This document shows positions 2,744 to 11,711 of a stretch of 22,715 nucleotides of DNA, piece after piece; position 1 is the stretch's first letter; every line of letters starts with the position of its first letter. Under the pieces are notes generated by a model. The model was given only the letters and a program-made list of their open reading frames with translations. It did not search any database and was not told where the DNA came from. Origin of the DNA: Flavobacterium psychrophilum (lineage in GTDB: Bacteria; Bacteroidota; Bacteroidia; Flavobacteriales; Flavobacteriaceae); NCBI GenBank assembly GCA_945861915.1, contig CAMAWK010000015.1, positions 1 through 22,715 of the forward strand, written 5' to 3'. A program made the position numbers and the translations under genes.

Positions 2744-2774
2744 TTTGGTTAACTGAAAATAAAACTTATATTCG
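2744..2774 (+). promoter_or_regulatory. Promoter of the pheA leader and aromatic operon
   Basis: TTTG (2744-2747) and TATATTCG (2767-2774) are separated by exactly 19 bases, matching the Bacteroidota promoter pattern TTTG-N19-TAnnTTTG with one mismatch in the -7 box. Transcription would begin at about 2780, placing the leader peptide start codon some 15-18 bases into the transcript. This supports a dedicated start for the leader rather than read-through from the barrel gene. Confidence 0.7.
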
Positions 2775-2796
2775 CATAGAATTTAAGAAAAACAAA

Positions 2797-2853
2797 ATGT
2801 CAAACAACCGTTTTTATTTTAGCAACACTTATTATTTCTTTTTTAGGAAGTAA
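2797..2853 (+). CDS. Phe/Tyr-rich attenuation leader peptide of pheA
   Basis: This 18-codon reading frame encodes MSNNRFYFSNTYYFFFRK: five Phe and three Tyr, with five consecutive aromatic codons (Tyr-Tyr-Phe-Phe-Phe, 2830-2844) just before Arg-Lys-stop. It begins shortly after a good promoter and lies directly upstream of an intrinsic terminator and pheA. The known counterpart by role is E. coli PheL, a short Phe-rich peptide controlling pheA; the two share composition and layout, not obvious homology. The start is preceded by an A-rich stretch suited to Bacteroidota initiation. The inferred role is that ribosome stalling on the aromatic codons, when charged tRNA-Phe or tRNA-Tyr is scarce, frees segment 2853-2860 and allows read-through. 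The peptide itself probably has no function. The frame is certain from the sequence; its translation is inferred. Confidence 0.8.
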   Translation: MSNNRFYFSNTYYFFFRK

Positions 2854-2932
2854 GGATTGTTTATGGTTATTTGAAACACAAGAAGCAAATAAAACTAATA
2901 TACAATCCTGATGAAAATCAGGATTTTTTTTT
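2802..2932 (+). promoter_or_regulatory. Four-segment transcription attenuator upstream of pheA
   Basis: Segment 1 (AAACAACC, 2802-2809) can pair with segment 2 (GGATTGTTT, 2854-2862) with a single bulged A. Segment 2 (AGGATTGT, 2853-2860) is a perfect 8-base complement of segment 3 (ACAATCCT, 2902-2909). Segment 3 overlaps the left arm of the terminator (2904-2912), so 2:3 and 3:4 pairing exclude each other. Segment 2 starts on the last base of the leader stop codon. A ribosome at the stop would mask it and let the terminator form, while one stalled in the Tyr-Phe run (2830-2844) would leave it free to act as antiterminator. The pairings are seen in the sequence. The mechanism is the established trp/phe attenuation model, applied by inference. 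Confidence 0.78.
2904..2932 (+). terminator. Intrinsic terminator (attenuator stem 3:4) before pheA
   Basis: AATCCTGAT (2904-2912) pairs perfectly with ATCAGGATT (2917-2925) around a GAAA tetraloop, followed by a run of T that ends at 2932. The pheA start codon is only 8 bases further on. A strong terminator directly before a biosynthetic gene and after a leader peptide is best explained as a conditional attenuator. Confidence 0.85.
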
Positions 2933-2940
2933 GAATACTA

Positions 2941-3768
2941 ATGAGTACAAGGATTGCAATACAAGGGATAAAAGGTTCGTTTCATCATCAAGTTGCCCAA
3001 GAATATTTTGGCAACGAGGTAGAAGTCGATGAATGTTTGTCTTTTGAGGAGTTGGTAGATAGCTTGTTATCAGGAAAATCAGACCAAGCGGTGATGGCAA
3101 TTGAAAATTCGATTGCAGGACCTATTATTCCAAATTATGCGTTGATTGACAAACACAATTTACACATTATTGGCGAACATTATTTAGACATTCATCAGAA
3201 TTTGATGGCGTTAAAAGGTCAAAAAACAGAAGATATTCTCGAAGTACATTCGCATCCGATGGCTTTGTTGCAGTGTATGGATTTTTTGAAAAAATATCCA
3301 ACCATCAAAATTGTTGAAGACAAGGATACTGCTGAAACAGCCCGAAGAATTCATGAAAATCAACTGCTTGGAATTGCAGCTATTGCTAGTAAAACGGCTG
3401 CAGAAATGTATGATTTAGAAATAGTAGCGCCTGAAATACAGACAATAAATAACAATATGACTCGGTTTGTAATCATTAACACCGTTGACCATTTTGTTGC
3501 CGAAGACGAAATTAATAGAGCTTCTATAAAATTTGAATTGGATCATAAACGAGGAAGTTTGGCAGCAATTCTTAACGTCATGAGTGATTGTAAATTGAAT
3601 TTAACCAAAATTCAATCCTTGCCAAAAATAGAAACACCTTGGAAATATTCCTTTTTTGTAGATATAACTTTTGAGAAGTACGAAGACTATTTTAAAGCAA
3701 AATCAATTATCGAAATTATGGCAGAATATTTCAAAGTATTAGGCGAATATAAAAACACAAAACCATAA
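2941..3768 (+). CDS. pheA: Prephenate dehydratase with ACT domain
   Basis: This enzyme converts prephenate to phenylpyruvate, the last committed step before phenylalanine. The 275-residue monofunctional product has the dehydratase domain at about 1-180, including G-S-F-H-H near the N-terminus and the catalytic Thr174-Arg175-Phe176 motif. An ACT domain (about 190-270) follows. The ACT motifs that bind phenylalanine in E. coli (GALL and ESRP) appear here as GSLA and QSLP, so classical feedback inhibition may be altered. No chorismate mutase domain is attached; that activity lies in the DAHP synthase fusion of the same operon. The ATG is 8 bases after the attenuator T-run, so expression depends on read-through. 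An aminotransferase gene follows after 48 bases. Confidence 0.95.
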   Translation: MSTRIAIQGIKGSFHHQVAQEYFGNEVEVDECLSFEELVDSLLSGKSDQAVMAIENSIAGPIIPNYALIDKHNLHIIGEHYLDIHQNLMALKGQKTEDILEVHSHPMALLQCMDFLKKYPTIKIVEDKDTAETARRIHENQLLGIAAIASKTAAEMYDLEIVAPEIQTINNNMTRFVIINTVDHFVAEDEINRASIKFELDHKRGSLAAILNVMSDCKLNLTKIQSLPKIETPWKYSFFVDITFEKYEDYFKAKSIIEIMAEYFKVLGEYKNTKP

Positions 3769-3816: not shown

Positions 3817-4962
3817 ATGATTACCAAAGCAAAGCGTTTAGACATAGTTGAAGAATACTATTTCTCATCAAAATTGAGAGAAGTGCGACAATTAGCTTCC
3901 GAAGGGAAACCGATTATTAATATGGGTATTGGTAGTCCAGATTTGAAGCCTTCGCAAGCGGTTATTGATGCAGTTGTTTTGGCTATGCAGGATGTAAACG
4001 CACATCAATATCAGAGTTATCAAGGATTGCCAGAATTACGTCAGAGCATGGCGGATTTTTATCAAAACAATTATGGTGTTTTCTTGAATACTAATACCGA
4101 AATATTGCCTTTGATGGGGTCAAAAGAGGGAATTATGCATATTTCGTTGGCTTTTTTGAACGAAGGAGACCAAGTTTTGATTCCGAATCCAGGTTATCCA
4201 ACTTATACTTCGGTAACGAATCTGGTTGGAGCAATTCCGGTGTATTATGATTTAAAGGAAAGTAATAATTGGGAACCTGATTTTGAAGAGTTGGAAAAAT
4301 TAGATTTATCCAAAGTAAAAATAATGTGGGTTGGTTATCCACACATGCCAACAGGAGCAAGAGGAAGTCTTGGTTTGTTTGAAAAATTAGTTGCTTTTGC
4401 CAAAAAGCATCAAATATTACTAGTCAATGACAATCCATATAGTTTTGTTTTGAATGATAATCCGATGAGTTTGCTGCAAGTGGAAGGTGCAAAAGAAGTA
4501 GTATTAGAATTGAATTCCTTATCCAAAACCTTCAATATGGCAGGTTGGCGAGTAGGAATGGTTTTGGGAAATACTAATGCTATTGATGCTGTGCTGAAAG
4601 TAAAAAGCAATATGGACAGCGGTATGTTTTTTGGAATCCAAAAAGGAGCCATTGCGGCTTTAAAAAGTGACCAATCTTGGTTCGATTCTATGAACGAAAT
4701 TTACAAGCGAAGACGAGTTTTAACAGAAAAACTAGCCGAGAAGTTAGGTTGTGAAGTTTACAAAGAAGGTGTTGGATTGTTTGTTTGGGCAAAATTACCC
4801 AACGGAATTACATCATCAGAAAAATTTATTGATAAGATATTATACGAAAAATCGATTTTTATCACTCCAGGAACTATTTTTGGTAGCAACGGGGAAGGAT
4901 ACATTCGATTTGCGCTGTGTGTGGGAGAGGAAAAAGTACAGGAAGCAATAGATAGGTTTTAG
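3817..4962 (+). CDS. Class I/II PLP-dependent aminotransferase (aromatic operon)
   Basis: This fold-type I aminotransferase probably transfers an amino group to phenylpyruvate and 4-hydroxyphenylpyruvate to make phenylalanine and tyrosine; aspartate, or LL-diaminopimelate as in relatives, are other possible substrates. The 381-residue product carries the family landmarks: the substrate-binding MGIGSPD near residue 37, the N-P-G-Y-P-T-Y segment, an N-D-N-P-Y motif, and the Schiff-base Lys237 in LNSLSKTF followed by GWRVG. The C-terminus has the conserved Arg in YIRFALC. In place of the usual N-P-N-N-P loop it has P-H-M-P-T-G, common in the Bacteroidota members. It sits between pheA and tyrA, which argues for an aromatic 2-oxo acid substrate, but sequence alone cannot settle specificity. 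A hairpin repeat lies between it and tyrA. Confidence 0.85.
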   Translation: MITKAKRLDIVEEYYFSSKLREVRQLASEGKPIINMGIGSPDLKPSQAVIDAVVLAMQDVNAHQYQSYQGLPELRQSMADFYQNNYGVFLNTNTEILPLMGSKEGIMHISLAFLNEGDQVLIPNPGYPTYTSVTNLVGAIPVYYDLKESNNWEPDFEELEKLDLSKVKIMWVGYPHMPTGARGSLGLFEKLVAFAKKHQILLVNDNPYSFVLNDNPMSLLQVEGAKEVVLELNSLSKTFNMAGWRVGMVLGNTNAIDAVLKVKSNMDSGMFFGIQKGAIAALKSDQSWFDSMNEIYKRRRVLTEKLAEKLGCEVYKEGVGLFVWAKLPNGITSSEKFIDKILYEKSIFITPGTIFGSNGEGYIRFALCVGEEKVQEAIDRF

Positions 4963-5016: not shown

Positions 5017-5868
5017 ATGAATATACACGTAATAGGCATAGGATTAATTGGCGGTTCGATGGTTTTAGACATAAAATCCTTGCATCCTAATGCGACTATT
5101 TTTGGTATTGATACAAATGAAAATCATTTGGCGGAAGCTATTGAATTGGGAGTGATTGATGCGCCTGCAACTTTTGATGATTTATATAATGCTGATTTTG
5201 TTATCGTTTCTGTTCCTGTGGATGTTTCGCTGACACTTTTGCCAAAAGTGCTAGATGCAATCGGAGAAAACACCATTGTTTTTGAAGTTGGTTCAACCAA
5301 AATGCCTATTTGTGAAGCGGTTGCCAATCATCCGAAAAGGAAAAATTTTATCGCTACACATCCTATTGCAGGAACCGAATTTTCAGGACCATCGGCAGCC
5401 ATAAAAGGATTGTTTCAAGGGAAAACGAATATCATTTGCGAGGTCGAGAAAACGTCTTTCAAATTACAAGAAAAAGCATTAGAATTGTTCAAAAGCATGG
5501 GAATGCGCATTCGATATATGGATCCAAAATCTCATGACAAACATATTGCTTATGTTTCCCATTTGTCTCATATTAGTGCCTTTATGCTTGGTAAAACGGT
5601 GATTGACAAAGAAAAAGACGAACAAGATATTTTTGATATGGCAGGTTCTGGATTTGAAAGCACGGTTCGGTTGGCAAAAAGCTCCCCAGCTATGTGGACA
5701 CCTATTTTTAAACAAAACAAAAAGCAAGTGGTAGAAACTTTAGATGAATATATTTCTAACTTGCTGCATTTTAAAAAATTATTAGAAAATGATGACTTTG
5801 AGGCTATTTTTAATGAAATGCAAGGAGTCAATAAAATAAAAGAAATTTTAAACGGAATGAAGAAGTAG
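5017..5868 (+). CDS. tyrA: Prephenate dehydrogenase
   Basis: This enzyme oxidatively decarboxylates prephenate to 4-hydroxyphenylpyruvate for tyrosine synthesis, using NAD(P)+. The 283-residue product starts with the Rossmann motif GIGLIGGS (7-14). It contains the catalytic segment T-H-P-I-A-G-T-E-F-S-G-P in the middle, and the helical dimerisation half with H-D-K-H-I-A-Y-V-S-H-L-S-H, both typical of the family. It has neither a chorismate mutase domain nor an obvious ACT domain. It is the third gene of the aromatic operon, so it is under the same leader as pheA, which fits the mixture of Tyr and Phe codons in that leader. The DAHP synthase/chorismate mutase gene follows after 75 bases that carry a heptanucleotide array. 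Confidence 0.94.
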   Translation: MNIHVIGIGLIGGSMVLDIKSLHPNATIFGIDTNENHLAEAIELGVIDAPATFDDLYNADFVIVSVPVDVSLTLLPKVLDAIGENTIVFEVGSTKMPICEAVANHPKRKNFIATHPIAGTEFSGPSAAIKGLFQGKTNIICEVEKTSFKLQEKALELFKSMGMRIRYMDPKSHDKHIAYVSHLSHISAFMLGKTVIDKEKDEQDIFDMAGSGFESTVRLAKSSPAMWTPIFKQNKKQVVETLDEYISNLLHFKKLLENDDFEAIFNEMQGVNKIKEILNGMKK

Positions 5869-5943: not shown

Positions 5944-7023
5944 ATGGAAAATAACAAAGAAATGAGAAACTGGTTGGATGCTTTCAATTTAACGCATCCA
6001 TTTGTAATTGCAGGCCCATGTAGTGCCGAAACTGAAGAGCAAGTATTGAAAATTGCACACGAATTGAAAGATTCTGATGTAAGTGTATTTAGAGCAGGAA
6101 TTTGGAAACCTAGAACACGTCCAGGAGGATTTGAAGGAGTGGGAGAAATTGGATTGAAATGGTTACAAAAAGCCAAAGCCGAGACAGGTTTGCTTATGGG
6201 AACTGAGGTAGCAACTGCTGCTCATTGTAAATTAGCTTTAGAGGCTGATATTGATGTGTTATGGGTTGGAGCCCGTACGACTGCGAACCCGTTTGCGGTA
6301 CAGGAAATTGCTGATACTTTAAAAGGAACTGATAAAATAGTCTTGATAAAAAACCCCGTTAACCCTGATATGGCTTTGTGGTTGGGCGGTGTAGAACGTT
6401 TGCACATGGCAGGAATCAAAAAATTGGGTGTGATTCACAGAGGATTTTCGACCTACGAAAAAACAAAATACAGAAACATTCCAGAATGGCAAATTGCTAT
6501 CGAATTACAAAATAAATTCCCTGATTTGCCCTTAATTATCGACCCATCGCATATTACAGGAAACAGAAATATGATTCTTGAAGTAACGCAAGAAGCATTG
6601 GATTTAAACTATGATGGAATGATTATCGAAACGCACATCGATCCAGACAACGCTTGGTCTGATGCGGCTCAACAAGTAACTCCGGATACTTTAAAACAAA
6701 TTTTCAAAGATTTGAAAGTGAGAAAAGTAAGTGGCGACAGCGATTTCGAAAATAAAATGACAAAATTAAGAGCCAATATTGATGTTTTGGATGCTAATTT
6801 ATTGGAGCTTTTAGGAAAACGTATGAAAGTTGCAGACGAAATTGGTCAAGTAAAAAAAGATAATAATGTAGCTGTTTTACAAAACAATCGTTGGAACGAA
6901 ATTCAAGAAAAAATGATTGCCGAAGGTGGAAAGAAAGGATTGACAGAAGAATTTATCATTAAATTATTCAAAGAAATTCACCAAGAAAGTATCGGACACC
7001 AGGAGAAAGTGTTGAATTCTTAG
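5944..7023 (+). CDS. Bifunctional DAHP synthase / chorismate mutase
   Basis: The N-terminal domain (about 1-260) condenses phosphoenolpyruvate and erythrose 4-phosphate to DAHP, the entry to the shikimate pathway. The C-terminal domain (about 265-350) rearranges chorismate to prephenate. The first domain shows A-G-P-C-S, W-K-P-R-T-R-P, a V-G-A-R-T segment and D-P-S-H of the KDPG-aldolase-like (type I beta) DAHP synthases. The second is an all-helical AroQ-type chorismate mutase starting around LRANIDVLDANLLELL, with V-A-D-E-I-G and Q-N-N-R-W. The fusion joins the first pathway step to the branch-point step, so prephenate is made by this protein for both PheA and TyrA. The 359-residue length fits this fusion. 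Fused mutase domains can also act as the allosteric sensor of the synthase. It is the last gene of the operon, with a probable terminator after it. Confidence 0.94.
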   Translation: MENNKEMRNWLDAFNLTHPFVIAGPCSAETEEQVLKIAHELKDSDVSVFRAGIWKPRTRPGGFEGVGEIGLKWLQKAKAETGLLMGTEVATAAHCKLALEADIDVLWVGARTTANPFAVQEIADTLKGTDKIVLIKNPVNPDMALWLGGVERLHMAGIKKLGVIHRGFSTYEKTKYRNIPEWQIAIELQNKFPDLPLIIDPSHITGNRNMILEVTQEALDLNYDGMIIETHIDPDNAWSDAAQQVTPDTLKQIFKDLKVRKVSGDSDFENKMTKLRANIDVLDANLLELLGKRMKVADEIGQVKKDNNVAVLQNNRWNEIQEKMIAEGGKKGLTEEFIIKLFKEIHQESIGHQEKVLNS

Positions 7024-11637: not shown

Positions 11638-11711
11638 TCGGGATGACTGGATTCGAACCAGCGACCCCTAGCACCCCATGCTAGTACGCTACCTGGCTGC
11701 GCTACATCCCG
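11638..11711 (-). tRNA. tRNA-Pro (anticodon GGG)
   Basis: Read on the minus strand, this 74-base gene folds into a complete cloverleaf. The acceptor stem CGGGATG/CATCCCG includes the C1:G72 pair typical of proline tRNAs. The D stem is GCGC/GCGT, and the anticodon stem CTAGC/GCTAG carries the loop ATGGGGT (anticodon GGG). A five-base variable loop follows, then the T stem GCTGG/CCAGT with TTCGAAT. The discriminator base is A. The 3' CCA is not encoded; an ACTTTTTTATT sequence follows, and its T-run probably ends the transcript. It lies between aroA and queA, opposite to both. Confidence 0.96.

Follow-up and report, generated by a model that had tools for sequence, protein, structure and literature searches.

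A probable ribosome-mediated Phe/Tyr attenuator precedes the pheA operon in Flavobacterium and its relatives

The E. coli pheL leader features Phe codons only and controls pheA alone. The aroR-aroF attenuator of Corynebacterium glutamicum features a Phe-Tyr-Phe leader and controls an operon that includes a DAHP synthase (Neshat et al. 2014, as related in PMC11802643). According to the available passages of PMC11802643, transcription from aroR rises on Phe limitation, and the availability of Tyr has no effect. The Bacteroid-trp element appears among the Bacteroidetes motifs in the accessible part of Weinberg et al. 2010 (PMC2864571), and leader-like frames are mentioned for Bacteroides in excerpts of PMC7366714. 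A 2021 paper on F. psychrophilum (PMC9723704) mentions, in the sections available, leader-peptide attenuation and a conserved structured 5' element before pheA. The initial annotation of the locus described here knew of no described example in this group; Rfam RF01692 (Bacteroid-trp) and PMC9723704 correct that point, and the attenuator is partly foreshadowed in print. A term search of the available text of PMC2965389 returned nothing for this group, and the open PMC titles and abstracts among the matches listed give no fuller description of a pheA leader.

The DNA analysed here, referred to as the window, is a whole stretch of 22,715 nucleotides. Its plus strand features pheA, encoding prephenate dehydratase (2941-3768; PF00800), followed by a class I/II aminotransferase (3817-4962; PF00155), tyrA, encoding prephenate dehydrogenase (5017-5868; PF02153 and PF20463), and a DAHP synthase fused to chorismate mutase (5944-7023; PF00793 and PF01817). 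The window PheA is 91% identical to that of Flavobacterium sp. ES-bin-45 and 90% identical to that of F. fluvii. Read directly, positions 2744-2940 comprise a Bacteroidota-type promoter, an aromatic frame, an 8-bp antiterminator pairing and a terminator, after which pheA begins. This region is very likely a ribosome-mediated transcription attenuator that controls the four-gene operon, as the initial annotation had suggested, and a conserved frame, covarying 2:3 and 3:4 stems and a conserved promoter-like box argue for this reading.

The promoter, on the plus strand, consists of TTTG (2744-2747), a 19-base spacer and TATATTCG (2767-2774); its assignment follows the Bacteroidota promoter consensus, and from its position a transcription start is expected near 2780. 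A TAnnTTTG-like box lies at most 70 nt before the leader start in 115 of 126 family and class leaders, compared with 24% of shuffles. The leader peptide frame on the same strand, MSNNRFYFSNTYYFFFRK and a stop, extends from the ATG at 2797-2799 to the TAA at 2851-2853 and features 18 codons, 8 of which are Phe or Tyr. Five of the 8 are consecutive and form the control stretch Tyr-Tyr-Phe-Phe-Phe (2830-2844), and an earlier Phe-Tyr-Phe group (2812-2820) has residues that are invariant in the genus. In the terminated form, segment 1 (2800-2839) is predicted from the window fold to pair with segment 2. Fold and covariation define segment 2 (2853-2873), which includes AGGATTGT (2853-2860) and an inner antiterminator arm (2862-2873), and segment 3 (2886-2909), which includes the other inner arm (2886-2900) and ACAATCCT (2902-2909). 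They likewise define the intrinsic 3:4 terminator (2904-2932), a 9-bp stem (2904-2912/2917-2925) with a T run at 2924-2932 that leaves 8 bases before the pheA start at 2941. AGGATTGT and ACAATCCT are perfectly complementary over 8 bases. The promoter, the 18-codon frame with its 8 aromatic codons, the complement that overlaps the terminator stem and the terminator 8 bases 5' of pheA had all been reported in the initial annotation, and each is found in the sequence as described.

The locus features hallmarks of an attenuator: a short frame rich in codons for the end products of the operon, an antiterminator that is placed just past the control codons and is exclusive with the terminator, and, as sequence and structure, a terminator before the first structural gene. 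From this arrangement we infer that the frame is translated, that ribosomes stall in it, in what order the RNA folds in time and which aromatic amino acids count. Transcription would begin near 2780 and a ribosome would start the leader peptide. When charged tRNA-Phe and/or tRNA-Tyr is scarce, the ribosome would stall in the control stretch, segment 2 would pair with segment 3 before segment 4 is made, and the polymerase would read through. When charging is ample, a ribosome at the stop codon (2851) would cover segment 2 and the 3:4 terminator would form. The edge of a ribosome lies ~12 nt past the first base of the A site, so that a stall within 2830-2844 would leave 2855-2860 free and a ribosome at the stop codon would cover those bases. 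In 123 family and class leaders, a median of 12 nt separates the final aromatic codon in the densest stretch from the start of the best segment-3 complement. A stall at the genus-invariant Phe-Tyr-Phe-Ser residues that begin at 2812, however, is expected to occur too soon for segment 2 to be released. Additionally, the leader frame of L007, L080 and other members of their clade extends through segment 2 and ends inside a conserved ATGGTTATTTGA/TAA, which shifts the stop codon relative to segment 2.

Folding of 2798-2932 gives the 1:2 plus 3:4 form at -27.5 kcal/mol, which is better than 200 of 200 dinucleotide shuffles (z = -3.61). The antiterminator stretch alone (2848-2909) folds at -13.5 kcal/mol and likewise surpasses 200 of 200 dinucleotide shuffles (z = -4.26). 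When segment 1 is omitted and segment 4 is present (2848-2932), the minimum-energy form is the terminator, at -16.5 kcal/mol. The terminator is therefore the energy minimum once segment 4 exists, and antitermination would have to rely on timing, with the antiterminator forming first. The antiterminator of the trp attenuator must likewise form before its terminator. Among 126 leaders, the stretch between the control codons and the end of segment 3 scores a median z of -3.27 relative to plain shuffles; in 123 of these leaders, half or more of segment 3 is paired. A leader that works by translational coupling or by occlusion of pheA initiation, and not by ending transcription, might be suspected from the 15 bases that separate the stem end from the pheA start in the window. 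The stem, however, continues into a run of nine T (2924-2932), and across the family anything from 4 to 338 bases separates the hairpin from the inferred pheA start, which fits termination and does not fit occlusion; the coupling mechanism is thus very improbable.

Covariation was assessed on a genus alignment of 80 rows (79 loci and the window), of which 74 are distinct, against 500 shuffles. The antiterminator (2:3) is paired in 94.2% of cells and features two-sided changes in 41 cells, compared with 14.4 in shuffles; the terminator (3:4) is paired in 99.5% of cells, with two-sided changes in 23 cells compared with 7.7. For both stems, the share paired, the cells with two-sided changes and the covariation score each lie above 500 of 500 shuffles. 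The remaining two of the five covariation measures, pairs with a two-sided change and further pair types, are not above the shuffles for either stem because few pairs vary. The two stems compete for segment 3, and a column of that segment shared by antiterminator and terminator changes three ways, with both partners covarying: in most rows (49 distinct) the column carries U and each partner A, and in one clade (23-24 distinct rows) it carries C and each partner G. RNAalifold run on alignment A1 returns the terminator only. Covarying 2:3 and 3:4 stems are what the initial annotation had expected of relatives, and the genus alignment and its shuffles bear this out.

A swap test determined that segment 3 fits its own leader better than those of other species (17.5 compared with 13.6; 0 of 10,000 permutations) among 123 leaders, from which L224, L229, L232 and every row lacking an aromatic frame were left out. 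In 22 more distant leaders the values are 18.1 and 14.2, with 11.2 for shuffled regions (0 of 10,000 permutations); here L224, L229, L232, L256, L257, L260, L261 and L265 were omitted as Flavobacterium or family-like by PheA identity. The permutations of the swap test ignore kinship. A tree-aware pairing test was underpowered and not significant, with only 5 independent pairs (89 of 94 leaders, the two commonest segment-3 cores); segment 2 differed on average the same way in 2.5 pairs and the other way in 0.5, with no difference in 2.0.

The 1:2 pairing is the weak point of the model. The initial annotation had proposed a protector between 2802-2809 and 2854-2862; its bases do pair in the window, but the genus gives it no covariation support. 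When the RNA stops at 2863, this pairing is the lowest-energy fold, and it could therefore form early in transcription, whereas longer RNA prefers 2800-2811/2863-2874 together with 2821-2839/2845-2861 in the window fold. The protector is paired in 80.6% of genus cells, a share reached by 461 of 500 shuffles, and its covariation score is reached by 28 of 500, although the values lie above slid controls. It was set aside as a supported segment since its share paired does not exceed the shuffles. The alternative 1:2 hairpin likewise lacks covariation support, though it too lies above slid controls: it is 85.2% paired, and 312 of 500 shuffles reach this share and 97 of 500 its score. A four-segment, trp-type 1:2 hairpin forms in the window fold, and the genus alignment lends it no covariation support.

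The genus set consists of the best 80 of 162 PheA relatives from a scan of genome contigs and was searched for a frame with at least 5 of 8 codons for Phe, Tyr or Trp, a terminator and a perfect complement of at least 6 nt. All three elements precede pheA in 79 of the 80 loci; the remaining locus (L070) has 37 bases upstream before the contig ends. Among 633 other gene starts in the same loci, 117 have a terminator-like hairpin, 4 also have an aromatic frame and 2 have all three. These counts, together with folds that beat 200 of 200 shuffles, agree with the earlier view that chance would rarely bring all the parts together. An earlier control limited to at most 40 hairpins per region counted 58 among 74 pheA starts and 6 among 637 other starts, and 5 of those 6 are the pheA leader seen from an earlier start. 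Of the genus loci that span at least 12 kb, 73 of 73 keep the order pheA, aminotransferase, tyrA and DAHP synthase/chorismate mutase. In the window, a gene for an outer membrane protein on the same strand ends at 2704, and the terminator might accordingly be thought to belong to it, with the remaining parts coincidental. A relative of that gene was detected directly upstream in 2 of 80 genus loci, however, while the leader stays with pheA, and the promoter-like box lies between the gene and the leader. The leader goes with the operon and not with the upstream gene, and a coincidence of this kind is extremely improbable.

A sample of 120 genomes from the F. fluvii family gave PheA in 102, and all 102 upstream regions were scanned. 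A leader is present in 99 (97 detected automatically, L146 and L178 by eye), and 90 of the 97 also have a Watson-Crick complement of at least 5 nt; the other seven feature a frame and a terminator with no perfect complement of 5 nt. In L129, L153 and L181 pheA has no leader, and in L129 repeated units, as judged by eye, occupy the leader's place. The class sample features the PDT domain in 34 of 129 genomes, of which L224, L229 and L232 are Flavobacterium-like. Here a leader was found in 24 of the 34 (21 automatically; L223, L237 and L240 by eye) and was not found in 10. The phylum sample gave a match in 102 of 118 genomes; one of the best-scoring 30 of these 102 loci has a leader (L214). A further 16 phylum loci, picked non-randomly, gave 9 leaders automatically and one by eye (L253), and about a dozen more loci of the phylum sample entered through the class or family samples. 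These counts indicate a trait that is common in the family, has a more scattered distribution in the class and is rare in the 30 best-scoring phylum loci. As had been anticipated for relatives, the aromatic frame is kept upstream of pheA (79 of 80 genus loci; 97 of 102 family loci by automatic detection).

The conservation of the codons bears on a different explanation, in which the terminator is governed by an RNA-binding protein, a small-molecule riboswitch or a tRNA-binding (T-box-like) element and the aromatic frame arises incidentally from U-rich RNA. The leader is AT-rich, Phe and Tyr codons are U-rich and the genus strongly conserves the 5' portion of the RNA, all of which would suit such an element. 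Seven core positions are nevertheless aromatic in 80 of 80 rows, and their 54 third-base departures, counted over related rows that are not independent, are all synonymous, with none to Leu or stop. Few control gene starts pass (the 2 of 633 above), and at curated cut-offs Rfam matches nothing in the window except a tRNA (11638-11711). Additionally, leaders of other operons in the same family have codons of their own. A His-rich frame lies upstream of hisG in 29 of 30 loci (L268-L297, the best-scoring 30 of 33 family genomes with HisG), for example MTFIQLHHHHFHTCTQAS, and a Trp-Trp-Trp frame lies upstream of trpE in 30 of 30 (L298-L327, from 39 family genomes with a match). Strong terminators accompany 29 of 30 hisG and 30 of 30 trpE loci, and frames that reach the Phe/Tyr threshold occur in 2 of 30 of each, compared with 97 of 102 pheA loci. 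The hisG and trpE counts cover codon-rich frames and terminators; the pairing condition was dropped because automatic detection selects incorrect frames or pairings in a number of these rows. Leader codon content follows the pathway in the family, and this match is the strongest reason to regard the codons as the sensor rather than as an incidental effect of AT-rich DNA. A protein, riboswitch or T-box-like control of the terminator is thus highly unlikely, and the ribosome-mediated attenuator is the preferred reading.

By eye, several trpE loci have a -7-like box a few bases before the ATG, and a box so near the start may signal near-leaderless initiation. Several loci upstream of ilvD (L328-L357) feature short Ile/Val-rich frames, such as MKKQILNIVSIMVIVIISQG in L352, that precede a GCCTTCC/GGAAGGC-type terminator. 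The homoserine dehydrogenase loci collected stop short of the start of the gene.

The aromatic codons are not of one kind. Among the 80 genus rows, core position 6 has Tyr in 54 and Phe in 26, and position 10 has Phe in 44, Trp in 28 and Ser in 8. Phe and Tyr are both present in 97 of 97 family leaders; Trp codons occur in 68 of these 97 and in 11 of 26 leaders from the class and phylum sets, and the window leader has none. These substitutions and the frequency of Trp suggest, tentatively and with slightly less than even confidence, that a single leader responds jointly to shortage of any aromatic amino acid, with Phe, Tyr and Trp codons interchangeable in the control stretch, and that this is ancestral in the class (Bacteroidia). 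Interchangeability would make sense because the operon holds both the common first enzyme (DAHP synthase) and the two end branches. The mixed control stretch makes an integrated Phe/Tyr(/Trp) sensor testable. The attenuator as a whole supplies a sequence-level model, open to test, for the way in which many Bacteroidota may control the synthesis of aromatic amino acids. The collected leaders could also serve as reporters of Phe/Tyr charging in flavobacteria.

Rfam release 15 recognises none of 10 pheA leaders (the window and nine loci) and neither of 2 hisG loci, and it recognises one trpE leader. The collected leaders could therefore seed new Rfam families. RF01692 matches the trpE locus L305 with 65.7 bits, one of 2 trpE loci scanned, and recognises neither the window nor any of the nine further pheA loci scanned. 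Like the window leader, Bacteroid-trp is a peptide leader from the same phylum; unlike it, Bacteroid-trp features Trp codons and precedes the trp operon. E. coli pheL-pheA (RF01859, Phe_leader) shares with the window an aromatic leader peptide and an antiterminator/terminator switch before pheA. The window scores 21.3 bits with RF01859 against a cut-off of 55 (E = 0.2) and is not a member by Rfam score. Its operon, in contrast to that of pheL, has four genes and is preceded by Phe, Tyr and, in many relatives, Trp codons. The C. glutamicum aroR-aroF attenuator, in the portions of PMC11802643 available, belongs to another phylum and another operon, and both leaders precede an operon with a DAHP synthase; the indifference of aroR to Tyr is a warning for the Tyr inference in the window leader. 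The accessible sections of PMC9723704 give neither anatomy nor codons for the pheA element, both of which are given here. What is new relative to these systems is the spread beyond genus and family, the anatomy with its two covarying stems, codons matched to the pathway and a control stretch of mixed Phe/Tyr(/Trp) codons.
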